A stretch of DNA of 64,000 nucleotides from assembly GCA_947568835.1 (NCBI GenBank), contig OX387610.1, positions 8,581,501-8,645,500 of the forward strand, in the 5' to 3' direction. The DNA comes from Protonemura montana. Its lineage: Eukaryota > Arthropoda > Insecta > Plecoptera > Nemouridae. Below are positions 4,917 to 62,074 of the stretch, piece after piece. A model generated the notes under the pieces. That model saw only the letters and a list, made by a program, of their open reading frames with translations, searched no databases and was not told the origin of the DNA. Both the position numbers and the translations under genes were made by a program. How positions within the stretch are numbered: the stretch's first letter is position 1; each line of letters begins with the position of its first letter.

Positions 4917-6113
4917 TCCGTGCGCAGCCAGAGAGTGACCATCTCCAAGCAATGACCGCCATGTTAGCACGGCTAGAGAGTGGACATCTCTTCGCAATGG
5001 CCGCCATGTTTGCACGGCCAGAGAGTGGACATCTCTAAGCAATGGCCGCCATGTTAGCACGGCTAGAGAGTGGACATCTCTACGCAATGGCCACCATGTT
5101 TGCACGGCCAGAGAGTGGCCATCTTCAAGCAATGACCGCCATGTTTGCACGGCCAGAAAGTGACATTTTCAAGCAATGGCCGCCATGTTTGTAGGGACAG
5201 AGAGTGGACATCTCTAAGCAATGGCTGCCATGTTTGCACGGCTAGAGAGTGACCATCTCCAAGCAATGACCGCCATGTTTGCACGGCCAGAAAGTGATAT
5301 TTTCAAGCAATGGCCGCCATGTTTGTAGGGACAGAGAGTGGACATCTCTAAGCAATGGCTGCCATGTTTGCACGGCTAGAGAGTGACCATCTCCAAGCAA
5401 TGACCGCCATGTTTGCACGGCCAGAGAGTGGCCATCTCCAAGCAATGACCGCCATGTTTGCACGGCCAGAGAGTGACCATCTCCAAGCAATGACCGCCAT
5501 GTTAGCACGGCCAGAGAGTGGCCATCTCCAAGCAATGGCCGCCATGTTTGCACGGCTAGAGAGTGACCATCTCCAAGCAATGGCTACCATGTTTGCACGG
5601 CCAGAGAGTGGCCATCTCCAAGCAATGACCGCCATGTTAGCACGGCCAGAGAGTGGACATCTCCAAGCAATGGCCGCCATGTTAGCACGGCCAGAGAGTG
5701 GACATCTCTACGCAATGACCGCCATGTTTGCACGGCCAGAAAGTGACCATCTCCAAGCAATGACCGCCATGTTAGCACGGCCAGAGAGTGGCCATCTCCA
5801 AGCAATGACCGCCATGTTTGCACGGCCAGAAAGTGACATTTTCAAGCAATGACCGCCATGTTTGCACGGCCAGAGAGTGGACATCTCTAAGCAATGGCCG
5901 CCATGTTTGCACGGCCAGAGAGTGACCATCTCCAAGCAATGACCGCCATGTTAGCACGGCCAGAGAGTGGACATCTCCAAGCAATGGCCGCCATGTTTGC
6001 ACGGCTAGAGAGTGACCATCTCCAAGCAATGACCGCCATGTTTGCACGGCCAGAAAGTGACATTTTCAAGCAATGGCCGCCATGTTAGCACGGCCAGAGA
6101 GTGGACATCTCTA
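4917..6113. repeat. 45-bp minisatellite, about 26 units
   Basis: Tandem array with a 45-bp period measured on the recurring atgtt anchor (4961, 5006 and so on). A typical unit reads caagcaatgaccgccatgtt, tgcacggccagagagtgacc, atctc. Sub-variants alternate: gtggacatctctaagc, gtgaccatctccaagc, gtggccatctccaagc, and a 44-bp form with gtgacattttcaagc. A 45-bp period is a multiple of 3, so long open frames run through it on both strands (a repeating 15-residue peptide). The 44-bp variant breaks the frame, and there is no splice context, so these are not genes. Each unit carries a GCCAT core and many carry two. Confidence 0.95.
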
Positions 6114-8018: not shown

Positions 8019-8525
8019 TTAGCGTTAATGTTACGATTTCTGCTAAGAAAACTAACCGGCAACACGTGATAATGACAGGTGCCACCTGATGGCGCTAGTG
8101 GCCGCCTTTATTAATAAACAACCAAGATTAAATAATGGCTACTCAAAATAAGGATACATGAATATACTTCATTCGCTTTGCTTATCAACCTCTCGACAGC
8201 ATGAATTTGTAGAGGAATACTGCTGTTCGCGTTGGACCGTCCTTTGGAAGGTACTTTAAGCCAGTAGTCCCCTTGGTGCTATTCGACATGACTATGCTAC
8301 GTGCCGGCACTGGGTTTCACCTCCTTTCTTCTAGGCTAGGTTATGTTCATCATCATCCACTCATTCACCGACGCCATTAGACCAGTGCCACAATATCTTT
8401 CGTTGTGGCTAGCATAAGTCCAGATTGATTAATCGTAAAACAGTTGTAATTGCAAGTAATCTGGAAGAAATAACTAAATTAAATTCAGTAACACTCAAAA
8501 CGACGGTGACTCCACCTACAAGAAT
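8019..8525 (+). mobile_element. tRNA-SINE family 2 body, interrupted
   Basis: The 5' part (8019-8167) and 3' part (8393-8525) together match the family 2 body in order, and the second part resumes within a few bases of where the first stops. The interruption is a 5S-derived SINE body (next entry). This makes family 2 at this locus older than the 5S-SINE insertion. Confidence 0.8.
8168..8392 (+). mobile_element. 5S-derived SINE body inserted in a family 2 SINE
   Basis: Begins in the ctttgcttatcaacctctcg block. It carries a decayed copy of the conserved hairpin (ccgtcctttggaag), the gtgccggcactgggtttc block and the catcatcatccactcattca block, and ends near accagtgccac. The 5S head is absent. 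An AATAT word occurs at both junctions and could be a short target-site duplication. Confidence 0.8.
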
Positions 8526-9224: not shown

Positions 9225-9569
9225 ATTTCAAGGTTCGGGAGAGAGGTTGGAGGGATGAAAGTTAGTGCAGCAGCTTCACTCGCCTTGCTTATCAACCTCT
9301 CTACAGCATGGATTTGTGGAGGAATCCTGCTGTTCTAGTTGTACCGTCCTTCGGAAGGGACGTTAAGCCGGTGGTCCCCTTGGTGCTCTTCGACAGGAGT
9401 AGGCTACGTGCCGGCACCGGGTTTCCCCTCCTCCCTTCTAGGCTAGGTTAGGTTCATCATCATCCTCATCATCATCCACTCAATCACCGACGCCATTAGA
9501 CCAGTGCCGCAGGGTCAGTTGTCAAAACAGTGCGTCGTTAAAACACCACAAATAATAATAATTTCAAGG
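9225..9569 (+). mobile_element. 5S-derived SINE body with target-site duplication
   Basis: Element 9234-9560 is flanked by the 9-bp direct repeat ATTTCAAGG (9225-9233 and 9561-9569). It starts at ttcgggagagaggttggagg, just downstream of where the 5S-like head ends in longer copies, and ends in an (AAT)n tail after tcgttaaaacaccac. A 5' truncation, a simple 3' tail and a target duplication are the marks of LINE-mediated retroposition. It holds a well-preserved hairpin core (ccgtccttcggaagggacg). Confidence 0.88.
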
Positions 9570-17634: not shown

Positions 17635-18310
17635 TAGATAGGATTTCCGTGTTGCAATGTTGGAAATACCGAAGTTAAGCAACACTGCGCTGGATCAGGT
17701 ATTAGATGCGTGACCATCATACAGATGACCAGTTCTGTTCAGGAGAGAGGTTGGAGGGAAGAAAGTTAAGCAACACTGCGCTGGATCAGGTATTAGATGC
17801 GTGACCATCATACAGATGACCAGTTCTGTTCAGGAGAGAGGTTGGAGGGAAGAAAGTTAAGCAACACTGCGCTGGGTCAGGTATTGGATGCGTGACCATC
17901 ATACAGATGACCAGTTCTGTTCAGGAGAGAGGTTGGAGGGTTGAAAGTTAAGCAACACTGCGCAGGGTCAGGTATTGGATGCGTGACCATCATACAGATG
18001 ACCAGTTCTGTTCAGGAGAGAGCTTGGAGGGATGAAAGTTAAGCAACACTGCGCTGGGTCAGGTATTGGATGCGTGACCATCATACAGATGACCAGTTCT
18101 GTTCAGGAGAGAGGTTGGAGGGTTGAAAGTTGAGCAACACTGCGCTGGGTCAGGTATTAGACGGGTAACCATCATACACATGACCAGTTCTGTTCGGGAG
18201 AGAGGTTGGAGGGTTGAAAGTTAAGCAACACTGCGCTGAGTCAGGTATTAGACGGGTGACCATCATACACATGACCAGTTCTGTTCGGGAGAGAGGTTGG
18301 AGACTTTACA
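17635..18310 (+). repeat. 91-bp satellite born from the 5S-derived SINE, 7 units
   Basis: Seven units start at 17674, 17765, 17856, 17947, 18038, 18129 and 18220, each exactly 91 bp on the gttaagc anchor (gttgagc in the sixth). One unit contains the 5S box A region (gttaagcaacactgcgctgg), a decayed box C region (ggtattggatgcgtgacc), the linker atcatacagatgaccagttc, and the beginning of the SINE body (gagagaggttggagg). It is therefore a head-plus-body-start segment amplified in tandem, not a 5S gene cluster. Sequence before the first unit (17652-17673, gttggaaataccgaa) is the preceding part of the 5S head. Units differ at a few positions: tagatgcg, tggatgcg and tagacggg. Confidence 0.92.
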
Positions 18311-27742: not shown

Positions 27743-28304
27743 GGGCTGTTTGCCGTGTTGAAAACATTGGTTCTCTTGAGATCACCGAGGTTAAGCGTGG
27801 GTCAGGTATTGGATGGGTGACCACCGAACAGTTTGGCGTATTAAAAACATTTGTTCTCGTTAGATCACCGAGATTTGGATGGGTGACCAAAGAACGGTTT
27901 GGCGTTTTGGAAACGTTAACTCGCGTAAGATCATCAAGGTTAAGCAACACTGAGATAAGTTAGGGATATTGCATGGATGACCATCATACGCGTAACTATA
28001 TATATTTTTTTAGTAGGAAGGTTTCAGAAATACAAGTTAGCCCACCAACTTATCTCGCTTTGATTATCAACCTCTCGACAGCATGGATTTGTGGAGGAAT
28101 CCTGTTCGTGCCATACCCTCCTTCGGAAGGGGTCCCCTTGGTTCATTTCGATAGGAGTAGGATACGTGATGGCCTTAAATTTCCTCTCCACATTTCTAGG
28201 TTAGGTTAGGATCATCATTATCTACATTAACCATTGACTTATCGACGCCATTGGACCAGTGTCATGTGGCACGTTGTCAAAGCGGTGCGTCGTTAAAACC
28301 GGCA
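27743..28304 (+). mobile_element. 5S-derived SINE with three 5S-like heads
   Basis: Three consecutive 5S-like segments come first. The clearest has agatcaccgaggttaag and attggatgggtgaccacc (27777-27826). The second is internally deleted but keeps tagatcaccgaga and tttggatgggtgacc. The third keeps taagatcatcaaggttaagc. They are followed by the SINE body with tatcaacctctcgacagcat, a decayed hairpin core and the gcgtcgttaaaacc end. The antisense 119-aa frame over it is a shadow. Confidence 0.85.
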
Positions 28305-29675
28305 AATTTTGAACATTGACTAGAAATCCCTTAAACTCAATAAAAAGCCATCTGTTCAAGACTCTTCTATAAGAGGTCTCTCAATTCTGTCATAATGCTA
28401 AATATTTCCCAACCATCATAAAATGATTGAATTATAGCTAACATGATTACCTACATCACCCCTAATACAATTCAAATAAGATCACGTGAAAACATTATCA
28501 TTAGCTGTTATCTCCCCCTCTAAAAGCAAAATTCCTAACTCTCCCCTATTTTGATCCGTATTGACGCCCCAAAGGATCTATTAGCAGGGGGGGGGGGGGG
28601 GGGGGGGGGCATCGTGATCTAACCTATTTGTAGCTACACAAAGAGTGAGGCATCCATTATGCCAGCTTTGATCATTTTGTGCACAATGAAAACCAATTCA
28701 AACGTCTTGTAGGGGAACTATAGTATATTAGATCAACCATTTTCTTGGTATTGGAGGGTGTTGAAGAAGGGTCGGTAAATATCAACGGGAAACTCTTAGA
28801 TCTTAGATTTGTGTACTTTTTCACCCTCAATGGCAAGCGTCGTGGTCGTTGTAGGTGTGACACAAGAAAAATTGAAGGATAACTTCTAACTTTTAGTGGG
28901 TATTGTCATAGGTAACTCATTTTTTGTTTTTGAAGAAGTTACCGTATCAGGAGCGGACCTTTTCAGGAGCGACTAATTTTAAGCACAACCGACGTAATTG
29001 TTTAGTGTCATTGTCCTACGCATTTGTATTGTCTGTGAGCTGAAATTTACATAGACTAGCAAAAGCGAGCAAAAATTAAAATCTTCACGTTGCTTTTAGG
29101 TCCGGTTTTACCAAAATCTCGCCTTCTAGTTGAAGTGTTAGTTAAAACTATTGTCATGACGACTTCCAATCACATGCAGTAAAATGGAGATGTTTCTGTG
29201 AGTTGGAAGTCCAACTTATAGTTGAAAATTTTCGTAAAACTCGATCTTAGTGTCGCGAAGCGACTGTTGCTCAAAAAATTCGAATCCAAAATATGAAAGA
29301 AATTACACAATACAGAATCGCAGTGCTTGGTTTCTTTTATCGTAACTGTATGGATTTAAGGACAGAATATGTAAAATAATTAAGGTTTTAGCTTCTAATT
29401 TTTTAAAATGACTAAAATCAAGAACAATTCATCTGGAGGAGACTTCATAGGAGAACCATTCTATTTATCAGGATAAATATTCTTTAAATATTTTATTAAT
29501 AAAGCCTGCATGCAATTTTACCTTATCCTGCAGTCACCTTTGGTCCGGAGAGAACCAGGACACCAGAAGACAGTCGAAGACTCGTGGAAAATTCTAAAAA
29601 TATACCCACTTGTTAGAAGCAGCACATAAAATGAATGCTAAAAAAAAATCTATGGAATATCCGTTGAATGAAGTT
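28305..29675. other. Intergenic; G23 tract
   Basis: A run of 23 G at 28587-28609. The rest is AT-rich with nothing recognised. Confidence 0.45.
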
Positions 29676-30766
29676 TTATGGCGTTTTCGACTGGCTGTCC
29701 CAGTGCGCCCCGGGTGTGCACCGGGGTCGATATGCGTGTTCGACTGGGCATGTGACTCTGTCCCAGTGCAACTTTCACGTGTTCGACTGGGCATGTGACT
29801 CTGTCCCAGTGCAACTTTCACGTGTTCGACTGGGCATGTGACTCTGCCCCAGTGCAACTTTCACGTGTTCGACTGGGCATGTGACTCTGTCCCAGTGCAA
29901 CTTTCACGTGTTCGACTGGGCATGTGGCTCTGTCCCAGTGCAAATTTCACGTGTTTGACTGGGCATATGACTCTGTCCCAGTGCAACTTTTACGTGTTCG
30001 AGTGGGCATGTGACTCTGCCCCAGTGCAACTTTCACGTGTTCGACTGGGCATGTGACTCTGTCCCAGTGCAACTTTCACGTGTTTGACTGGGCATGTGAC
30101 TCTGCCCCAGTTCAACTTTCACGTGTTCGACTGGGCATGTGACTCTGCCCCAGTGCAACTTTCACGTGTTCGACTGGGCATGTGTCTCTGCCCCAGTGCA
30201 ACTTTTACATGTTTGACTGGGCATATGACTCTGTCCCAGTGCAACTTTTACGTGTTCGAGTGGGCATGTGACTCTGCCCCAGTGCAACTTTCACGTGTTC
30301 GACTGGGCATGTGACTCTGTCCCAGTGCAACTTTCACGTGTTTGACTGGGCATGTGACTCTGCCCCAGTTCAACTTTCACGTGTTCGACTGGGCATGTGA
30401 CTCTGCCCCAGTGCAACTTTCACGTGTTCGACTGGGCATGTGACTCTACCCCAGTGCAACTTTCACGTGTTTGTCTAGGCATGTTACTCTGTCCCAGTGC
30501 AACATTCACGTGTTCGACTGGGCATGTGACTCTATCCCAGTGCAACTTTTACGTGTTCGACTGGCAGAGTTGCTCGCTCTCCGGTGTACTTTTCTTCCTC
30601 CAAAAATGTCAACAGTGCAATTGGAAAACAAATCAATCCATTGACAGCGAGTGCTCACCTGTTCAGGTGTGAGCGCCCTCGCTCAGAGCTGGTGCAAACC
30701 CGGTGGAGAATCTCATAGAGCAAGTTTCAAACCCTCCCTGGAGTAAACCAGTCGAAAACACCATAA
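29676..30766. mobile_element. Terminal-inverted-repeat element carrying a 43-bp array
   Basis: TTATGGCGTTTTCGACTGG at 29676-29694 and its near-perfect reverse complement at 30748-30766 (18 of 19 positions) bound a 1.09 kb segment. A TA dinucleotide lies at both outer edges and is compatible with a TA target duplication. A second, shorter inverted match (cccgggtgtgcacc left, ggtgcaaacccgg right) lies just inside the termini. There is no transposase frame, so it would be non-autonomous. Confidence 0.6.
29735..30565 (+). repeat. 43-bp tandem repeat, about 20 units
   Basis: The anchor cgactgggca recurs every 43 bp from 29741 to 30558 (19 periods). A unit reads gtgttcgactgggcatgtga, ctctgtcccagtgcaacttt, cac, and contains the inverted pair ACTGGG / CCCAGT. 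Variants alternate between ctctgtccc and ctctgcccc and between tttcacgtg and ttttacgtg. The apparent proteins over it on both strands simply translate the repeat. Confidence 0.95.
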
Positions 30767-32384: not shown

Positions 32385-32765
32385 ACTTAAGATCACCGAA
32401 GTTAAACAATACTGGTCTGGGTAAAGCATTGAATAGGTAACCGTCATGCAAAACCCGCTATGTTCGGGAGAAAGGTCGGAGGTTTTATAGATACTAAAAC
32501 TGAACTCGCTTTGCTTATCAACCTCTCGACATTATGTATTTGTAGAGGAATCCTGTTGTTCGCGGTGTACCGTCCTTCGAAAGGGACCTTAAGCGTCCAC
32601 TTGGTGCTCGTCTACAGCAGTAGGCTAAGTACCTGTACCAGATTTCTCTCCTCCGTTTTAGGCTAGATTAGATTAATCATAATTCTCATCATCACCCACT
32701 CATTCGCTGACGGCCACTGACCAGTGCCTGGATACCAATTGTCAAAACAGTGCTCCAGATAATGC
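32385..32765 (+). mobile_element. 5S-derived SINE, head plus body
   Basis: One 5S-like head (aagatcaccgaagttaaac, then gaataggtaaccgtcatgc) is joined through tatgttcgggagaaaggtcg to the body. The body contains tttgcttatcaacctctcga, ccgtccttcgaaagggac, atcatcacccactcattcgc and tgtcaaaacagtgc. This copy shows most directly that head and body form one unit. Confidence 0.88.
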
Positions 32766-35384: not shown

Positions 35385-35520
35385 TTGAATGCTAAGTGAA
35401 GAACAAATAAATTTCCCAACTTTTCGTACCTGTTATTTTATCATGAGTGAATGCAGTTCTGACAATTTTCCGAAACTTTTGTAAATTTAGTTGTTCTTCA
35501 CTTTGCATTTAAACCTTAGT
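35385..35520. mobile_element. Foldback element, short diverged copy
   Basis: ttgaatgctaagtgaagaac on the left and ttagttgttcttcactttgc on the right are inverted partial copies of the arms seen at 54603-54831, about 50 bp apart. They carry several mismatches. Confidence 0.55.
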
Positions 35521-36272: not shown

Positions 36273-36675
36273 TGTTTATTTGTGTATTTGTTTATACCAG
36301 TTTGATCGTGGACATTGTATTTGAAATTGTCTCTCAATTACAATAAGTTGTCAATAAATAAAATATACAATAACGTATAAATATACAATAAATAAAATAT
36401 AGTTACAATAATTTTATAGTATCATGTCATACATTTACAATCTAAAACTAAAATTGTATAATTCTGAAATTCTGGACAGAACATTGTTAGTTATCGTTTG
36501 GTATTTTCCAAGAAGACAGTTTAACATCAACGCTGAGACTATGATTTTAAACTTTAAATCAAATCTTTCTATCCTTAATACTAGCAATCTTTGAAATATC
36601 TCATGATAAAACGCTAGAGACAACCAAACGACCACAAAAACACGACTAGGACTACATAATGATTGATTGATTTTT
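36273..36675. other. Intergenic, nothing recognised
   Basis: Very AT-rich, with aataaatat repeats near 36350-36400. Confidence 0.45.
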
Positions 36676-36832
36676 GTATTAAACGACGCACTGTTTTGAC
36701 AATGTGCCCTGTAGCACTGGCAAAGGTGAATGAGTGGGTACGTAATGATGATGATGATGATGATAAGCCTAAACTAGCCATGAAGGAAGGAGGTTAAACC
36801 CGGTGCTGTAACTAAGCCTACTCCTGTCAAAT
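36676..36832 (-). mobile_element. 5S-derived SINE, 3' half
   Basis: Minus-orientation copy: taaacgacgcactgttttga (3' end), a GATGATGATGA run and aggttaaacccggtgct. It ends at cctgtcaaatagca without the 5S head. Confidence 0.75.
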
Positions 36833-37831
36833 AGCATAAAGTCTTCACTGCAGAACGCTTGAAGGCAAGATAACAATACTATCTCAACATATACTAATCT
36901 CCCTCTTAAGGTGAAATGGAGTATAGCTAGATAAATCAAGAAGCGCCTCGAAATTGCCTGTCGTCTGACAGTCGGTGGTCTAACGAAGGTGTGACACGCA
37001 CCTTGTACGTATTCCTTGCACGCACTGATGGTATTCGAGAGCCCGGGCACGCACTATTAGTGCGACTTGGGCTGTAGTACGTATTGGTGCGGTATGGTGC
37101 GCTCGTTTGATGTTTTACGACGCACCGTGAATGTATTACATTATTTAATGTTGATGAATAGTAAATATTTGCTTCCTTCATCTCAGGTTACCTAGTATGA
37201 TGTATTTTCCTCCGAATTCTGCTTATATTTATCTTGATTTTTCGAAACAGTACCGGAAATAGATAAAAGAACTATTTAAATGACTATCCTCTGTTCCATA
37301 TTTTCCTTCATTCCATCCTTAGCAAGTGTTTAATAGGAAAAAATAATTCCCCTCTAATTACATCCCCTTTATCTTCCCTTTCACACGACTCCTTTTATAA
37401 TGCTAGAACGCTACGCTTCTCGAATACCATTTCTAAAAACACTACTACAAGTGACACCTAGCGGCGGTTAGCTACACTTTGAAGACCCGAACAAGTTCAG
37501 ATAGAAAACACCGTACCGACTTAATTTTATTAGAAATTTATCGGTGGCGAATTTTAAAAAATCACAAGCAAAACCGACCACAACAATCAAAAAGATAAAT
37601 TAGTTAAATTGTTAAAATACTAAAATATATTTTGTATAATCTTAAACTAAACACGGTTTTCTTACATGGTTCCTTTTTATGATTTACTTTTATGTACGAA
37701 GTGTTGCCTACGCCGACCGGCGTAATTCACGGAAGTGCATAACCAGGAAACAAGAGAGGAAACTGACATAAACAAAACACAGCAAAACAACGGACGTGCA
37801 AAAACTAGTGTGCTATTTTAAGCATTTTTTT
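36833..37831. other. Intergenic, 3' of the 621-aa gene
   Basis: A CG-containing stretch at 36950-37130 with frequent gcacgca / gtgcg words, function unknown. The rest is AT-rich. Confidence 0.4.
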
Positions 37832-38254: not shown

Positions 38255-40120
38255 TCACTGATAGTACTGAGGTGGCGGTCTCCGCCTATCTTGCTGGTAC
38301 CTTTGATTAGACTCCTCAACATTTCTAATCAATGGCATTTTATTCCAAAACCTTATCACTGGTCGCTGAATCCTCCGGTTGTCCGGCCTCCAGTTATTCG
38401 ACCACTGCCTGAACTTTTCATCATTAAAAGGTTCACCAGGAGGAAACCTCACCGAATTTACCCTCTGATCCACTTGGTAGACTTGGTCCCTATCGTTCGG
38501 AAACCTCACGAAACCGTTTCGCGGGGGCAAGTTAGGTTGTTGATATTGCAAAGGAAAGTGTTGCTGTTGAGGGTTGAAGTTGAGGTTCTCGTAAGGTCTG
38601 TAGACAGGGATAGGCGGAACTGGTTGACGGTTCAGATAGTCATCAAGGCTGAAAGGTGTGTCTGGGATCTGTTTTATTGGTTCTTCAACAAACTTTGGTG
38701 GTACGAGTTTGGAAGGGTTCAGATTGTGAACTTGAAGACTTGCACCGTTGACGTTGTCGTTTGGTTTCAAGTCGATCTCCATGATGCCTTCGCCATCTGG
38801 AAACGTGTTTCTGACCGGTTGGATGTTGATGACAGGACTGTCCACGAACTGGATTCGTTCAGAACTGGCCTCTGGAATTATATTTCGAACTGGCAGCACT
38901 TTGTCAACTTGTGACGAGCTGTTAAGTTCTAACATTGCATCCAGGTTTGCGTTGACAGTTTCTAAAAATAAATTATCTTCAGAAACATTTTCAAACATTT
39001 TGTCTCTCTCTCCGGAACCCATTTCGGGTTCTATTGGAAACTCGTCTGGGTAATCTTCTGTTGTAGTGTCTTCAACTTCATGAACGACGGTTGTCGACTC
39101 TGGCGTTTCAGTAGTTGATGATTCTTCTATTAAGTCAACAACTATGTCCTTGTCGAGAGCATTAACCTGGACCGGCTCTGAAACCAAAGCTTCAGTCGAA
39201 GATTCAACATCCTGTAACGACGTCGTAGAGGCTAAGCTTTCGTCATCTTTAACAATGTGAACGACATCTAAAATATCTCCAACTGCCTGATCATTGACTT
39301 CTAGCATCAAATGATCTCCACTTGAATTTGTAACTGCACTCATACCATCGTTCTCATCCAAAACTGGAACGTGATCCTTCTCCACAACACTAGATCCATT
39401 CACGTTAGTCACACTTTCTACCAAATCACTGTCATTGCCCACAAGCACAACCTCAGGTTCCTTTTCAACGCTACCCTCTGTCGTTACAACAATGGTCACA
39501 TTCTTACTAGGCGGCATCTCAGAAGTTGAACCCACTATCTGTAAATTAGACCCCACACTCAGCGTCTCCGTAGAGCTCAAAGACGTTGACGTTAAAGTCG
39601 TCGGTACCGAAGACGCCGTTGCGCTCGTCGTGGAAGTCTTTAAAACATCTTCAGCTACTGGTAGCTCAATGCAAGGCTCTGCTTTGGGAGGTTCCACGAG
39701 TTCACTCTTCCCTGGCTCTACGCTAAGCGGGTTACCCTGTGGTTTAGGCTTACCGTACGGGCCAACATTGTCACCAGGACCATTAGCCGGTTTCGTGCCT
39801 CCCCCAAACGGAAACGGTCCCGGTTTTTCAGCCGACCCATACATGGCATTCAACTTCTGCAACAAGAAATTCAACTGCGCTGCTTGATTGACGTGCACCA
39901 GTTTAACGCAGTTGCCAGCAGCGTCCTCCCGGTACCCGTGGGCACAACGCACTGCACTGAAGTCGGGCGCTATGAACACCGACTTGGCCATGATGCGTCT
40001 AGGTTCCTTGTGGAGCGACGTCTCGCCGGATATCAGCCAGTCGCGGCTGTATTGGCGTAGTGTTGCGGTCTGGGCGTGCGCGGCGAGGGTGGCGAAGAGA
40101 AGCAGGTGCCACAGCTTCAT
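38255..40120 (-). CDS. Secreted acidic Ser/Thr-rich protein, 621 aa, single coding exon
   Basis: A complete ATG-to-TGA frame of 1866 nt, by far the longest in the window. Residues 1-16 (MKLWHLLLFATLAAHA) are a signal peptide. Residues about 20-95 form a compact block with a Cys pair, C59-x11-C71, in the pattern CxxGYxxDxxGxC, followed by a Leu-rich stretch (AQLNFLLQKLNAMYG). A third Cys lies near 151. Residues about 100-150 are Gly/Pro-rich. About 160-400 is acidic and rich in Ser, Thr and Val, with six N-glycosylation sequons (near 208, 230, 242, 266, 379 and 401), suited to heavy O-glycosylation. About 470-621 is rich in Pro, Gln, Asn and Arg and basic, ending PPPQYYQ. There is no membrane anchor. 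Signal peptide, conserved N-terminal block and long glycosylated tail are reminiscent of insect secreted ligands such as Folded gastrulation, but I could not verify homology. The 101- to 207-aa frames on the other strand are shadows. Confidence 0.92.
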   Translation of the reverse strand: MKLWHLLLFATLAAHAQTATLRQYSRDWLISGETSLHKEPRRIMAKSVFIAPDFSAVRCAHGYREDAAGNCVKLVHVNQAAQLNFLLQKLNAMYGSAEKPGPFPFGGGTKPANGPGDNVGPYGKPKPQGNPLSVEPGKSELVEPPKAEPCIELPVAEDVLKTSTTSATASSVPTTLTSTSLSSTETLSVGSNLQIVGSTSEMPPSKNVTIVVTTEGSVEKEPEVVLVGNDSDLVESVTNVNGSSVVEKDHVPVLDENDGMSAVTNSSGDHLMLEVNDQAVGDILDVVHIVKDDESLASTTSLQDVESSTEALVSEPVQVNALDKDIVVDLIEESSTTETPESTTVVHEVEDTTTEDYPDEFPIEPEMGSGERDKMFENVSEDNLFLETVNANLDAMLELNSSSQVDKVLPVRNIIPEASSERIQFVDSPVINIQPVRNTFPDGEGIMEIDLKPNDNVNGASLQVHNLNPSKLVPPKFVEEPIKQIPDTPFSLDDYLNRQPVPPIPVYRPYENLNFNPQQQHFPLQYQQPNLPPRNGFVRFPNDRDQVYQVDQRVNSVRFPPGEPFNDEKFRQWSNNWRPDNRRIQRPVIRFWNKMPLIRNVEESNQRYQQDRRRPPPQYYQ

Positions 40121-40143
40121 CGTGGGCCATATGAGGTGGTGCG
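40121..40143 (-). promoter_or_regulatory. 5' UTR segment with splice acceptor
   Basis: On the minus strand, cttatctttccag precedes position 40143, an excellent acceptor with a pyrimidine tract, only 23 nt before the ATG. The exon therefore starts with a short piece of 5' UTR. An upstream ATG in this piece is out of frame (10 nt before the start). Confidence 0.75.
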
Positions 40144-41895
40144 CTGGAAAGATAAGGGTTGGATTAGCATGTGGGAAAGTAACAGAACAACAGCTATATC
40201 GTATTTGATCCTAAAGCGACGCAAGGGGTAAACGGTTTACTCGTTGCTTGCAGGAGTGGGTCATCTTCGGAGATAAATCCGCTTTCATTGTTAGGTTGCA
40301 GTTAAAATGTGTAAGAAAATTGGGGACAAAACAGCTTAGAATAGTAACTAGCTCCAAAAGGATTTAGGTAATGAGTGGAATCTTAAAGATTGTTTTATTA
40401 GAAAAATATTCGTTCGGTCATAATAAATTTGATGACTAAAGAATCATGATTATGAGAATGATAATCACCCTTCCAAGACCTGAATCAGCAGAGTTTTGTT
40501 CAAACAGTTTGGTTAGGGAGTTAAAAAATGTTAACAGAGGGTTAATTATGCAAACATAGATTCCCACTTGGGAAATCAATCTACGGATCTGCAGGAACTG
40601 AAAAACAATCCCTTGATCGAACTCACGGTTACCCTAGATGAATTTTTACGCAAAGTGAGCATCTAATCACATTAAAATGAGGAAAGAAAGAGGAAATTAA
40701 GGTAGCACGAGGTGAAGAAACGCAATAAGCCCTCAGGCGCGCTCAATTACTTTGAGCAACAAATTCCCTTAGAATATCAGAAAAACAAATGACGCGCCCA
40801 TGTCTAAAATTAGCAAATGAAATTTGTCTCATGCTGAACGTTAGTACCAATTCGTTCCACTAGGAAACACCATGTTCCAGCCAGTGCGCAAGTCAAGCCG
40901 CCGCCAACTGAGTCATAAGTCATGAGTCATGTCAGAAACGGAAATAAGGTTAAACTTAGCTGGAAGCGTCGCTACAATCAATTCTAATCCACGTGTCTAT
41001 TTCAAATTTGCAGACCACATATGACGTTATATTATGTTACGTTTGCATGTTTAGTCTATAGATGATTATAGGTTAGAACCAAATAATCATTGTAAAGCAA
41101 CCTTCAGACTCGGCTCTTTGTTAAGGTAATTGCGACTTTGACATTTTGAGTTTACCTTTGCATCCGGCATTTTGAACGTAATGTCAGTTTGAGCTCGGGT
41201 AATGTACGTAGAGGTAATCACGCTGGTAATTACCATGTCGTTACTTACAGTCACAAGTTCATTGCTTTCATTCATAAATTTGATTATTGGAATTTGTTCG
41301 GATAATAATATTCGGGTCCACATTTCTTTTTATTGATAATTTGCTGCATTGGTTACGTCTAAGCCGTGGCTTGATGTAATTTCCGTGCAATTATTTGATT
41401 TGCTGGAAGCGTAATTAAAATGGATTACGGCGTGAAAAATGAGAGGGAACGCTAGCGAGCTGTTTAACGAAGCAAAAGAATTGTGCAAATTTAAAGATTG
41501 CACAACAATTTGTTTGATTATATAATTAGAAGCATTATGGACTAGTTTGACTAGCGGAAACATGCTCGATAAGTGTTGTTATTTGTTGGCGCTTGGAAAA
41601 AGTTTGAGGACTAAAAATAGGTGCGACAATATCTTCGACATATTTCTCCAATAAAGTGTTATTTAGAAATGGAGTAAATATTTAAAACAAAATTAACTTC
41701 TATGAATGCAAAGATAGGGCAATGTCATCTAATATCCTCGTAAACGCATTGGAATGTTATTTAAAAATATTAAAAATACATTAACAAAATTCGTTGACAA
41801 CTTAAATAAAATTGAAATTGTATCATGGGGAAATTCAACATGAAATATTTGTTTCTTTTAAGAAGATCTTAAATTAGAAGAAACTCAAGAAATCT

Positions 41896-42799: not shown

Positions 42800-43243
42800 G
42801 TGTGTTTAGCGACGCATTGTTTTGATAACACCAATCTTGTGGCTCTAGTCTGATGGCGTCGATGAATGTATGGGCAGTGCAGTTAAGAAAGTTGAGAAAC
42901 ATAACCTAGCCAAAATAGGAGGAAGGTATATCCAGAGCCGGGACATAACCTAGAAGAGCACCAGATTAGAGACCACTGGATTAACGTACCGTCTGAAGGA
43001 ACAACAGGATTCTTCCAGAAATCAATTCTGACTTGATATTCATAAGAAAGGCATGTAAAGGTAGGATATTAATCTCTCCAGCCTCCACCTCTCCAACCTC
43101 TCTTCCGAAAAAATAGGTCTTGAACGCGATGGTTGTACATCCAAAGCTTGGCCCTTAACAGTGCTTCTTAACTTCGCTGATATTACCAGAACAGAAGTTT
43201 CCAATATATTAAACCGTTCTGTTGTCACCAATCCAATACCGGA
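42800..43243 (-). mobile_element. 5S-derived SINE, diverged copy
   Basis: Minus orientation. The plus strand starts with the 3' end (gtgtttagcgacgcattgtt), then tggcgtcgatgaatg, a disturbed middle, the hairpin core region (ttaacgtaccgtctgaagg), ctccaacctctcttcc, and finally a remnant of 5S box C (gtcaccaatccaatacc, 43225-43241). It lies directly next to another copy in the same orientation. Confidence 0.75.
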
Positions 43244-43249
43244 TTGATT

Positions 43250-43640
43250 AATTTGTGGTGTTTAGCGACGCACTGTTTTGACAACTGGCCCTTAACCCTT
43301 ACTGGTTTAATTGCGTCGATAAATGAGTGGATGATGATGATGATGATGATGAGGATGATGATGAACATAACCTAGCCTAGAAGGGATGAGGGGAAACCCG
43401 GCGCCGGTAAGTAGCCTCCTCTTGTCGACGAGCAGCTAGGGGACCACCGGCTTAACGTCCCCTCCGAAGGACGGAACAACAGGATTCATCCCCAAATCCA
43501 TGTTGTCGAGAGGTTGATAAGCAAGGCGAATAAAGTTTCTGTACTAACTTTCATCCCTCAAACCTCTCTCCCGAGCATAACTGGTCATGCGTATGATGGT
43601 CACCCATCCAATACCTGACCCAGCGCAGTGTTGCTGAAAT
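43250..43640 (-). mobile_element. 5S-derived SINE, near full length
   Basis: Best-preserved copy, in minus orientation. Read on the minus strand: 5S part (gcaacactgcgctgggtcag then gtattggatgggtgaccatc, 43602-43635), linker gcatgaccagttatgctcgg, gagagaggtttgagggatg, cttgcttatcaacctctcga, the hairpin core ccgtccttcggaggggacg, ttaagccggtggtcccc, ggcgccgggtttcccctc, aggctaggttatgttcatc, a (CAT)n run, and ttgtcaaaacagtgcgtcgc with the family end taaacaccacaaat. The SINE body is about 300 bp. The internal promoter elements of 5S rRNA (box A and box C) are intact enough to be recognised. Confidence 0.9.
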
Positions 43641-44120
43641 TCAATGCACACATGAGCGTTCTGGAAGCTAACTCATTTGAAACTAACAAAAAGGCGACAG
43701 TATCGAACTTCAACTGTCTTTTAAGAGTCGTGATGCCCCCTGTCCTGTGACTGTACATTTAATTCGTGTCCCATTCAATGCACGACACGAACCAACTTGT
43801 CGTGGAAAACATTACACGACTGTCGTGAACCGCCAACAACAAACGATGCAATGGTCACGATGAGAGACGCATGCTAATTGAGGTTATTCGATAATACTTT
43901 CAGTTTTTGCATCGTGATCACTATAAGCGATGAGGACACACCTTAGAAGGTGGTAGCGAGCAGTGGGTGCGTTAGGACATGTGTTTGTTTCGTTGATGAG
44001 GAGCTAAGTTAATAGGTATGGCACCCAGATTGAAATTTAAAAGTTTTTGATTGTCTTTTAAGAATAGATTATTACTTTGGTTTTAACTTAAAAGCGCTAG
44101 ATTAAAAAAAAAAAATAGTT

Positions 44121-44425
44121 TTGAATCTGGCCGAACTGTTTGGCGTGTTGGAAACACCGGTTTTCGTGATACCACGTTAAGCAACACTGCGCTGGGTCGG
44201 GTATTGGATTGGTGACCACCGAACGGTTTGGCGTTTTGGAAACACCCGTACACGTGATATCACTGTAGTTAAGCAACACTGCATTGGGTCGGGTATTGAC
44301 TGGGTGACCACCGAACTGTTTGGCGTGTTGGAAACACCGGTTTTCGTGATACCACGTTAAGCAACACTGCGCTGGGTCGGGTATTAGATTGGTAACCATC
44401 ATAATCATTGCCAGTTCTGCTCTAG
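44121..44425 (+). repeat. Tandem trimer of 5S-like heads
   Basis: Three consecutive units of about 88-92 bp start near 44131, 44219 and 44311. Each has gaaacaccggttttcgtga or gaaacacccgtacacgtga, a degenerate gataccac, gttaagcaacactgc, gggtcgggtattg and ggtgaccacc followed by gaacGgtttggcg. This corresponds to roughly nucleotides 25-95 of eukaryotic 5S rRNA. It ends in the SINE linker (ccatcataatcattgccagttctg) and then loses similarity, so no body follows. It is not a functional 5S gene because both 5S ends are missing. Confidence 0.85.
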
Positions 44426-54885: not shown

Positions 54886-56112
54886 TAATAGATTAGTCAA
54901 AAAGTCTTGCCGTAAGCTCCATCGGTTGGCCACAACTGTTCCCACATGTCGCTCTGCAGAATGTTTAACACTAGCGCTGTGACTCTATCTTTAAACATCC
55001 AATGGTTTTACATTTGAATCCATCTATATATCATGTCGTCTTTGATATTCCCTGACCAGTTTGTTGTGTGCCATTTTCCTTTTTGTCACTTTCTGTCTCT
55101 CTATGACAAACACTTTCTATTTTAGCAAATAATCTTCTGATTAGCATACTAAACTGGGCACTAAATGCTTCTGTGCCGTCGGTGTCGTTCAAACTATTTA
55201 ATTTAATTGATACATTCGTTTTTGATTCAGAGGCATACACAAATTATCACAACTATTTGTTACTTGCCAAACTTTTCATATTTTCAGTTTAGTGTAAGAA
55301 AATTTTAAACAAGAAATCAGCACGTGATCGAAAGTACTGATGAAATGAAAAGTGGTAATTCCTTTGCAGACCCAGAAATACTGAAAATAAACACAGTTGA
55401 CTTCAGCAAATATTCAATCAAAAATTCTAAGGCTTGGAAAATACAATTTGAGTTGCTTTATAAATAAGCTTTTTTCTGTTCTTCTTTTCTTTCTTTGTTT
55501 TTCTTTGGAAAAAGGTACCCCCGCATATCTTTTTTTGGTACTCAAATTCGCGCTGTGAAATTGTTGCCAAGGAAGCAAATAGTATGGGTTTATTCTTGAT
55601 TATGGAAGCCTAGGTTTCTGTGATTTTTTTGTCAAGACATTGCAATATTCTCTATTCGTCTGAAACTACTGGTACAAAGTGTTACGACCAGTGAATTATT
55701 TACTATTGAGAGTACCTCCATTTTCTTAACAAAAAGTTCTTTAAATTAAAGATGCTTAACTTCGGAAAGAGCAGCATTTTTAAATACAATTATAGCATTT
55801 CCTACAACTTGAAAGTATATTTTTGGCAACTGACGCTCACGATGGGAGACGAGTGTTTTGAGTGCAACTAGTATCGTTTTACTTTAACAAGGTGACACTA
55901 TCCTAATAAAGCGATATCATTTCAATGCTAAACCAGGCACGAAAACAGAAGCCGACACAACATTCGCTAAACAAATGAAGTGCAAACATAGCCTGCTTGT
56001 TGACACAACGCGCAATATAAACTCTATTTCACCCTGAGAAGGAGACTTGATTTCTATGTTCTAAACAGACGCATTGATCGATTGATTGATCAGAAAATGT
56101 AAAACAGAAAAT
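54886..56112. other. Intergenic, nothing recognised
   Basis: AT-rich spacer without recognised features. Confidence 0.45.
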
Positions 56113-56965
56113 GGCAATCTTAAACAAGTAACCCGTGTCCGGCATCGGGCAGTTCATCACTATGTAATAGTAATGGGTGGGTGAAACAAGGGTTGTCATG
56201 GCAATCTAAAACAAGTAACCCGTGTCCGGCATCGGGCAGTTCATCACTATGTAATAGTAATGGGTGGGTGAAACAAGGGTTGTCATGGCAATCTAAAACA
56301 AGTAATCCGTGCCCGGCATCGGGCAGTTCATCACAATGTAATAGTAATGGGTGGGTGAAACAAGGGTTGTCATGGCAATCTGAAACAACTAACCCGTGCC
56401 CGGTATCGGGATAGTAATGGGTGGGTGAAACAAGGGTTGTCATGGCAATCTAAAACAAGAAACCCATGCCCGGCATCGGGCAGTTCATCACAATGTAATA
56501 GTAATGGGTGGGTGAAACAAGGGTTGTCATGACAATCTAAAACAAGTAACCCGTGCCCGGCATCGGGCAGTTCATCACAACGTTATAGTAATGGGTGGGT
56601 GAAACAAGGGTTGTCACGGCAATCTAAAACAAGTAACCCGTGCCCGGCATCGGGCAGTTCATCACAATGTAATAGTAATGGGTGGGTGAAACAAGGGTTG
56701 TCATGACAATCTAAAACAAGTAACCCGTGCCCGGCATCGGGCAGTTCATCACAATGTAATAGTAATGGGTGGGTGAAACAAGGGTTGTCATGGCAATCTA
56801 AAACAAGTAACCCGTGCCCGGCATCGGACAGTTCATCACAATGTAATAGTAATGGGTGGGTGAAACAAGGGTTGTCATGGCAATCTAAAACAAGTAACCC
56901 GTGCCCGGCATCGGACAGTTCATCACAATGTAATAGTAATGGGCGGGTGAAACAAGAATTGTCAT
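56113..56965 (+). repeat. 87-bp tandem repeat, 10 units
   Basis: Units start at 56113, 56200, 56287, 56374, 56444, 56531, 56618, 56705, 56792 and 56879. All are 87 bp except the fourth, which is 70 bp through loss of 17 bp after the ggtatcggg word. A unit reads ggcaatctaaaacaagtaac, ccgtgcccggcatcgggcag, ttcatcacaatgtaatagta, atgggtgggtgaaacaaggg, ttgtcat. Each holds the hairpin GCCCG-gcat-CGGGC (GTCCG in the first two, and weakened in the last two by cggacag). As 87 is a multiple of 3, both strands show repetitive open frames that are not genes. Confidence 0.95.
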
Positions 56966-57895
56966 GATAATCTAAAATTGGTCTCTGCTGGCAAGAAATG
57001 GTACGTATACTTTAGTTGAAATGAAGTGTAGTTATAAACCTCACGCACACTACCACATGCAAGTGACACATACACACACCGTTCGATTCCAGCTCGCGTC
57101 ACATCGAAGTGTAAATGAACTTGCCAATTATTAAACACTTGCTTGGAATTACGAAATGATTAGCCTCGTTAAAAGTGCAATTAGTGCAATTGGCGTCAGC
57201 AAGACCGATTGTCGACGGTGTAATTAGAGTTTTTGTTTCCCAGCGAGTCGAAGGGGGCGTTTAGTGGGCTGTGTTTACGCATGATTAGTGGGAGATGACG
57301 TATCTTACGACATGTCTCGTGGTTTTCACTTAAGCTGGAATTCAAAAAATCTAGACAGTTTTTCTGCGTCGGCATTGCTTGCGTTCTTTCATCTTATTTC
57401 ACACTTTTCTTGCGAATTGCGTGAAGCGAATACCAAAAGTCTTTTGCCCCAAATACTTTGACTTCAACAGTTTCTTAATTTTAAATGTCATCTAGAGTAA
57501 TTAACCGTTTCTAAAATTGCCACATGCTTGCAAAAAAATCGCCTTATGAAAGTTTTTTGAAGTTTATATTAACAGGGTAGTAAGACCAATTTCAGCACAT
57601 ATCTCCCCTCCCCCGCTTACCATTCATGAAACCGCACATTAAAAAAATTAGTAAATAGAATAAATTTCAGTCTTCTTCAATATCTTCGCTATGTGCTTAT
57701 CCATTTTTGTTAGAAAGCTTAGCTTGAATCGACGTTTAATCGATTTTTAAGCGATATCAATGGTTATTTAAAGCGACACCCTCTCGTATGACAAAATTTT
57801 GGTGGAACCTTGCAAATATTGACGTGGATGGTACGGTCGTTTAGTAGACTTGAATATGCTCTTGCCACTGTATTCCCTATTAGTTAGGCAGCCCA
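56966..57895. other. Intergenic, nothing recognised
   Basis: Moderately AT-rich with no recognised exon. Confidence 0.45.
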
Positions 57896-58267: not shown

Positions 58268-58415
58268 TGCTTGAGTAGCTCAATGGGTTAGAGCAACACC
58301 CGCGATAGGTGGAGATCGGTGTTCGTGTCCCCGTTTGGTCATCAATTTTTGAGACGGTTATAGTGTTGATAATAATAAAATACCCCGCGCATTGCAAGCG
58401 TTTGCAAATTAAATA
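58268..58415 (+). mobile_element. tRNA-SINE family 1, full length
   Basis: Complete copy: A box tagctcaatgggttagagc (58276-58294), B box ggtgttcgtgtccc, then gtttggtcatcaatttttga, gacggttatagtgttgataa, taataaaataccccgcgcat and tgcaagcgtttgcaaatt. The head would fold as a degenerate tRNA with a damaged B box (gttcgtgtcc instead of gttcgagtcc), so it is a pseudogene-type SINE and not a tRNA gene. Confidence 0.85.
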
Positions 58416-59519: not shown

Positions 59520-59826
59520 GGAATGAGAGGCTAGAAAGATGAAAGTTAGTACAGCAACTTCACTCGCCTTGCTTATCAACCTCTCGACAACATGGATTTG
59601 TGGAGGAATTCTGATTTTCGAGTTGTAGCATTCTTCGTAAGGGCCGCTTGTTCCCCTAGATGCTCTTCTACAAGAGTGGGCTACATTCCGGCACCGGGTT
59701 TCCCCTTCTCTCTTCCAGGCTAGGCTCACCATCGTCCTCATCATCATCCATTAAATCACCAACGCCATAAAACCAGCGCCACACAGCCCGTTGTCAAAAC
59801 AGTGCTTCGTTAAACCGCACAAATCA
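59520..59826 (+). mobile_element. 5S-derived SINE body
   Basis: Runs from gagaggctagaaagatgaaa through cttgcttatcaacctctcga, a decayed hairpin core (tagcattcttcgtaagg), caccgggtttccccttctc, atcatcatccattaaatcac and gttgtcaaaacagtgcttcg to the ttaaaccgcacaaat end. The 5S head is absent. Confidence 0.85.
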
Positions 59827-61778: not shown

Positions 61779-62028
61779 TTGCCCAGTTCTGTGTCGGAGA
61801 GCGGTTGGAGGGATGAAAGTTAGGACAGAAACTTTGGATTTGTAGGGATGTTAAACCGGTGGTCCCCTTGGCGCTCTTCGACAGAAGTAGGCTACGTGCC
61901 GGCACCGGGTTTCCTCTCCTCTCTTCGAGGCTAAGTTAGATTCCACATCATCATCCATTCATTCACCGACGCCATCAGACCAGTGCTACATTGCTAGATG
62001 TCAAAACAGTGCCTCGTTAAACCCCAAT
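61779..62028 (+). mobile_element. 5S-derived SINE, internally deleted
   Basis: Begins at cccagttctgtgtcggagag (the linker after the 5S head) and continues with cggttggagggatgaaag. It lacks most of the central part (from accctctcgac to the hairpin core), then resumes at ggatgttaaaccggtggtcc and runs to tgtcaaaacagtgcctcgtt. Confidence 0.85.
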
Positions 62029-62074
62029 AATCAATCTTTAAAGCATTGAGTTTATAGGTTTAATCAGAGTCCCC

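Follow-up and report, generated by a model that had tools for sequence, protein, structure and literature searches.

The window, by which is meant the whole 64-kb stretch of Protonemura montana DNA analysed here, contains at 43250-43640 a real copy of a SINE that lies on the minus strand with its head first. The copy is truncated at its 5' end and lacks the first 48 nucleotides of the full head. What remains of the head is a unit at 43551-43641 (minus strand) that matches a 91-bp unit described below at 93% and holds boxes A and IE, most of box C and a linker, with the box C motif matched at 43598-43621 with 0 mismatches. It is followed on the same strand by a body at 43364-43550 (87% to the body module) and by a tail domain at 43251-43329 (85% to the tail module). 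Between these two, Tandem Repeats Finder reports a (GAT)n run of 11.7 copies at 43330-43364 on the plus strand, which is (ATC)n when read in the SINE's own direction.

A blastn search of the window with this copy returned 24 alignments, which a module search resolved into ten copies of the body and two arrays of heads alone within the 64 kb. The earlier note on this DNA had put the number of copies with one body at about ten, in agreement with this result. It had also described a segment of the 5S rRNA promoter region upstream of the body, and matches to the corresponding motifs are indeed beyond chance: with three mismatches or fewer, the box A motif occurs five times (0.02 expected from shuffled sequence) and the box C motif 11 times (0.00 expected). 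All four copies for which a shared linker had been claimed, at 32385, 42800, 43250 and 27743, do have their head joined through the linker to the body.

Two of these four copies, those at 27743 and 42800, are old, and in each the head or a remnant of it is present more than once. The former (27748-28307, plus strand; 75-91% to the modules) begins with three tandem head starts at 27748-27996, continues with a body at 28034-28210 and ends with a tail at 28232-28307; Tandem Repeats Finder detects a head-derived period of 66 bp at 27809-27933. The latter (42802-43222, minus strand; 67-78% to the modules; direct repeat D4) comprises a head start and unit at 43086-43222, a body at 42898-43052 and a tail at 42802-42868, together with an extra box C remnant at 43224-43243. 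Another old copy, with head unit, body and tail (77-81% to the modules), occupies 32399-32753 on the plus strand, and its box A motif starts at 32391. A young copy at 9233-9553 (plus strand; body 97%) is 5'-truncated within the head unit and carries a 10-bp TSD, ATTTCAAGGT. The module search identified the others as a copy cut at both ends and so reduced to the body and a portion of the tail domain (8166-8392, plus strand), partial copies with body and tail domain at 500-676 and, in an old example, 36671-36841 (both minus strand), a headless copy with body and tail domain at 59543-59824 (plus strand), and a copy with the end of the head unit, a partial body and the tail domain at 61780-62031 (plus strand).

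Both head-only arrays lie on the plus strand. At 17672-18302, seven tandem 91-bp units without a body match the unit at 93-96% (Tandem Repeats Finder period 91, 6.9 copies). At 44131-44422, the module search finds three tandem 5S-like heads, again without a body, in which box C leads directly into a new head start (Tandem Repeats Finder 44131-44385, period 92, 2.9 copies).

Other tandem arrays in the window, with periods of 45, 43 and 87 bp, occupy 4927-6111, 29735-30564 and 56111-56977 and show no visible kinship with the SINE. A long near-perfect inverted repeat at 35389-35509 (plus strand) gives a weak match to a miRNA model (27 bits against a cut-off of 100), and a tRNA-like sequence at 58269-58341 (plus strand) scores 25.2 bits, under the cut-off of 29; a similar tRNA-like inverted pair lies upstream of the SINE at the sampled genomic copy L026. 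On the minus strand, a stop-to-stop open frame of 651 amino acids at 38255-40210 is probably an exon of a gene for a secreted or low-complexity protein.

A SINE with a 5S rRNA Head

The element is a 5S rRNA-derived SINE of about 440 bp and belongs to the SINE3 class. It is composed of a head corresponding to the first ~92 nucleotides of a 5S gene, to which are joined linker, body, an internal stretch of (ATC)n and a tail domain with a terminal (AAT)n or (AATC)n. A complete element starts with ACCGAACGGTTTGGCGTGTTGGAAACACCGGTTCTCGTTAGATCACCGAAGTTAAGCAAC and ends with ...GTGCGTCGTTAAACACCACAAAT, after which (AAT)n follows. When a full-length head taken from genomic copies is aligned with the host 5S gene, 65 of 76 positions agree without a gap over 5S nucleotides 17-92, and the alignment score of 54 compares with a mean of 8.5 and a maximum of 17 among 1000 shuffles. 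The earlier note had proposed such an alignment as a check on what it called a genuine 5S-derived SINE; the likeness is well above chance and, together with the TSDs described below, bears the assignment out. Consistent joining of head and body, its second test, is equally apparent, as 7,377 head-body junctions are counted genome-wide at one mismatch or fewer and a reversed-pattern control gives 0. Junction counts and module maps together describe a constant head-body-tail structure across many dispersed copies.

Past 5S nucleotide 92 the likeness ends and a constant linker starts. Since the 5S-like part stops there, the head lacks the 3' strand of helix I, and since box C of 5S genes extends to nucleotide 97, box C is kept only in part. 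Within the established limits of the 5S boxes, the head agrees with the host gene at 13 of 15 aligned positions in box A, 4 of 6 in IE and 13 of 13 in box C. Judged by its sequence, the element carries a predicted internal Pol III promoter made of boxes A, IE and C, the last being cut at nucleotide 92. A 448-nucleotide consensus contains no TTTT, a motif present in 907 of 1000 shuffles.

The genome used for these comparisons is 258 Mb in 34 contigs, 11 large contigs making up 95.8% of the assembly. It holds at least 47 matches to 5S genes, the best at 117.5 bits. These host genes form clusters on contigs C11 (70-105743), C15 (8741-66866) and C23, located close to the start of a contig or on a small one, and those on C11 are in mixed orientations. 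Matches to 7tm_6, an olfactory receptor family not known outside insects, number 129 in the same genome. A search with Chorion_1 found nothing here, nor did it in any control genome.

Tandem Multiplication of the Head

A feature that the earlier note missed is the tandem multiplication of the head. In some copies an ordinary body and tail are preceded by a tandem row of 91-bp units, from 2 to at least 13 in number; higher apparent numbers at L059 and L064 reflect overlapping partial matches and not real units. Each unit proceeds from AAGTTAAGCAACACTG on the box A side to GGATGGGTGACC on the box C side and then through the linker to GGAGGGATGA, so that boxes A and IE, most of box C and the linker are all included. 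The unit-unit junction is found 22,614 times in the genome (one mismatch or fewer) and the units total about 2.06 Mb, or 0.8% of the genome. The junction between head start and unit occurs 7,207 times, another junction type, where box C is joined straight to a fresh head start, 1,426 times, and the tail pattern 4,131 times. With the head-body junction these make five genome counts, for all of which the reversed-pattern control is 0.

The multiplied heads generally remain attached to a SINE. A body lies downstream of the array at 18 of 20 loci sampled around tandem junctions on contig C1, while L049 and L054 are arrays without a body; at L050 only the first 34 nucleotides of the body follow the array. 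The hexamer AAGTTA occurs both at the linker-body junction (GATGAAAGTTAGTAC) and within the head (CGAAGTTAAGCAAC). Across 180 units the boxes are no better kept than the linker (95.8% versus 96.8% conservation, p 0.76), as expected of mostly dead copies.

On C1 the arrays lie toward the ends. Among the matches listed, and by hand counts, the first 2.4 Mb holds 20 of 31 array loci versus 15 of 100 head-body junctions. Body haplotypes matched exactly across the genome number 2,835 for the many-headed type versus 897 for the one-headed type, and among the matches listed for C1 the many-headed haplotype falls below 2.4 or above 28 Mb in 73 of 100 cases versus 24 of 75 for its one-headed counterpart.

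Insertion and Activity

A module scan of the sampled loci yielded 112 body chains, 49 of them with a head start and a full tail. TSDs were sought in 38 of these 49, the other 11 being left out for short flanks or by other filters of the script. Exact TSDs of at least 9 bp (9-15 bp) flank 24 of the 38 full-length copies versus 0.65% of 2000 mismatched pairings, and 5 of 41 copies that have no head start (control 0.25%). The rate shows no clear difference between one-headed (17/25) and many-headed copies (7/13; p 0.49). Truncation at the 5' end is frequent. Tail-only copies occur at L083 and, with less certainty, L090, and the extreme case is the 66-nucleotide tail piece at L083, a 5'-truncated SINE flanked on both sides by TTAGTTTCCATC. 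TSDs and frequent 5' truncation are typical of insertion by target-primed reverse transcription, as carried out by a LINE. A search for the partner LINE in 12 3' flanks of reverse transcriptases, drawn from 150 listed places (1781 candidates), gave no sense-strand match to the tail better than E 1; antisense pieces of the SINE are present in two of the 12 flanks (L068 and L070).

The mean identity of sampled bodies to the reference body is 95.5% for one-headed and 94.2% for many-headed copies. The family had been described earlier as very active. Numerous it certainly is, given its 7,377 head-body junctions, but the body identities fit recent rather than present activity.

Origin of the Many-Headed Arrays

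The arrays could have been carried to new sites or could have grown where they are found. We assign a probability of roughly 0.7 to the reading that many-headed arrays were retrotransposed together with the element, and in-place growth may contribute at some loci. The samples that bear on this question are 20 copies with flanks that are the top matches to the reported copy (L021-L040) and three sets from C1, chosen by exact tandem junctions (L045-L064 and L117-L126), by exact head-body junctions (L097-L116) and by exact tails that have no adjoining exact head or junction among those listed (L077-L096). The duplicates L046, L053 and L060 and the minus side of L045 were excluded from the comparisons of body bases, unit position 22 and unit conservation.

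Many-headed copies with at least three units have body bases in common that are mostly absent from one-headed copies, and for this reason they look like a lineage. They carry C at body position 79 in 19 of 24 cases versus 3 of 34 one-headed copies, T at position 72 in 22 of 24 versus 8 of 34, and C at position 21 in 16 of 24 versus 4 of 34. The C1 samples alone give 16/19 versus 1/20, 18/19 versus 3/20 and 14/19 versus 3/20 at the same positions, and two-unit copies lean toward the many-headed bases (8/10, 7/10 and 6/10). Bodies that share bases in this way argue against the chief alternative, which is that the arrays are SINE-derived satellites: an element would insert with one or two heads, unequal exchange or slippage would add further units at the site, and the arrays themselves would not be retrotransposed. 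We regard this alternative as unlikely, although it accounts well for several observations. In structure and in their preference for chromosome ends the arrays resemble the SINE-derived satellites (sSats) of reptiles; 24 of 33 many-headed chains have no clear TSD; two of the 20 array loci (L049 and L054) are bodiless; and the bodiless arrays of the window at 17672 and 44131 look like orphans.

Two truncated copies speak more directly for movement of the arrays and against multiplication in place. L051 is broken off within an upstream unit, after which seven full units, the body and the tail follow, with 14-bp TSDs on either side; L033 is likewise broken off within a unit, followed by one full unit, body and tail, and has an 11-bp TSD. 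Strictly, L051 might have inserted with a smaller number of units and been lengthened afterwards. A position effect at unit base 22 also counts against growth in place. The base typical of one-headed copies, where it is present in 28 of 34, occurs in 12 of 17 first units versus 35 of 113 later units (p 0.0025). Finally, for 27 arrays of 3-13 units, units diverge by 4.9% within arrays, barely below the 5.4% between arrays. In-place multiplication is disfavored by so small a difference, but similar divergence is also compatible with early in-place growth, which is hard to tell from array transfer.

Against transfer of the arrays, exact TSDs of at least 9 bp flank only 9 of the 33 many-headed chains (7/13, 2/11 and 0/9 in three subsets). 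Some many-headed copies also lie inside larger duplicated segments, and L047 and L060, which have an identical TSD, are probably one insertion. It is conceivable, if rather improbable, that the arrays spread chiefly within larger duplications, or were carried along by another mobile element that holds many-headed SINEs in inverted pairs. L045 and L046 share 95% identity across a segment longer than 6 kb that includes two inverted many-headed SINEs, L047 has 1.3 kb of its inner part in common with them, the inverted arms of L048 extend past its SINEs, and the shared TSD of L047 and L060 points the same way. Against such passage, the inner part of L048 has no match in L045, L046 or L047, and independent many-headed copies (L028, L048, L055, L062, L097, L033 and L051) differ in their TSDs.

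At four sampled loci, many-headed SINEs form inverted pairs whose members are 2.0-2.7 kb apart (L045, 2263-7712; L046, 1833-6359; L047, 1952-5336; L048, 1803-5830), and the pair of L048 is a separate inverted duplication from that of L045/L046. These pairs suggested a DNA transposon with tandem-repeat inverted ends. As a general explanation it was rejected because one arm each of L047 and L048 has TSDs of its own, because the arms of L048 reach beyond its SINEs, and because many other array loci have no inverted partner in the stretch examined.

The Rfam 5S model finds no match in the window, even at E 1, on which ground a 5S RNA gene within the window was rejected; that null result and the existence of head-only arrays would also suit scattered 5S pseudogenes or a 5S satellite beside an unrelated repeat, yet we give such a reading almost no weight, since the 7,377 head-body junctions are all of one kind, the head stops at 5S nucleotide 92 to be followed by a constant linker and, decisively, TSDs flank complete head-body-tail copies.

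Relation to Known Systems

SINEs with 5S heads are already known from insects; what sets the present family apart is the multiplied, promoter-bearing head in one branch. Those described include HaSE3 of Helicoverpa armigera and PxSE4, PxSE5, LaSE2 and CsSE2 of other Lepidoptera (PMC3272025, PMC8010984), and SINE3-1_TC of Tribolium is cited as another (PMC3272025). By their descriptions, on which the comparison is based, the HaSE3/PxSE4 group likewise combines a 5S head with boxes A, IE and C, a body, a short-repeat tail, TSDs and hundreds to thousands of copies. Unlike the present SINE, its members are described with single heads, and the word "tandem" is absent from the main text of both papers (PMC3272025, PMC8010984). 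The tail repeats differ as well, being (TGA)n or (ATGT)n in that group and (AAT)n or (AATC)n here.

The sSats of squamate reptiles offer a close parallel in array structure. They are reported to prefer subtelomeric positions, and their growth is ascribed to recombination (PMC10702118). In that account, tandem units are derived from a SINE head and adjoining body, a SINE end often lies at the end of the array, and arrays favor chromosome ends. The present arrays are also built of tandem units from a portion of a SINE, and the preference for chromosome ends is seen on C1 only. In contrast, the reptile heads are of tRNA type, the snake unit is described with box B only, and arrays reach up to 1000 units (PMC10702118), whereas the present arrays consist of 5S head units, usually retain body and tail, and give evidence of having been retrotransposed.

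Elements with more than one head are represented by the dimeric SINEs, such as Alu and Sbg9 of the German cockroach, where dimers are reported to amplify as dimers, and by the Dip multimers, in which up to eight SINEs of full length are joined (PMC10702118, PMC9191728). As described, those are whole SINEs or two monomers joined, while the present SINE repeats only its head and linker, up to at least 13 times. A further likeness, as an analogy of working only, is to mouse L1, whose 5' end carries a variable number of tandem promoter monomers; unlike the present SINE, L1 is autonomous and uses Pol II. In the literature searched, mostly outside subscription journals, no title or abstract reports a 5S SINE with multiplied heads.

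A Possible Promoter Stack

A scheme for the origin of the arrays can be proposed from the sequence features above. The first tandem would likely have come from misjoining at the AAGTTA common to the head and the linker-body boundary. The resulting many-headed RNA would then have been copied into new sites, and the lineage would have been amplified together with its array. Each unit may bind TFIIIA and start Pol III transcription, in which case the array could serve as a stack of promoters and as a buffer against 5' truncation. Since the consensus has no TTTT, transcription could continue through many units, and it could start at any of them. Boxes that are no better kept than the linker, and a box C cut at nucleotide 92, count against this picture.

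Taken as a whole, the functional picture is put forward only tentatively. It would be of a SINE lineage with a Pol III promoter stack that is read through, whose whole many-headed RNA is reverse-transcribed, which keeps a promoter after 5' truncation and whose body haplotype outnumbers that of its one-headed kin. The resulting ~2 Mb of 5S promoter-like units might even act as a sink for TFIIIA.

Retroposed 5S promoters have been argued to be silent or weak owing to their dependence on upstream signals (PMC3272025). If the tentative picture is true, a thriving lineage that multiplies its promoter would be a natural answer to that difficulty, and the promoter stack would be a Pol III counterpart of the L1 promoter monomers. 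The multiplied heads also connect a dispersed retrotransposon with satellite-like arrays in one genome, where the order of events can be tested.
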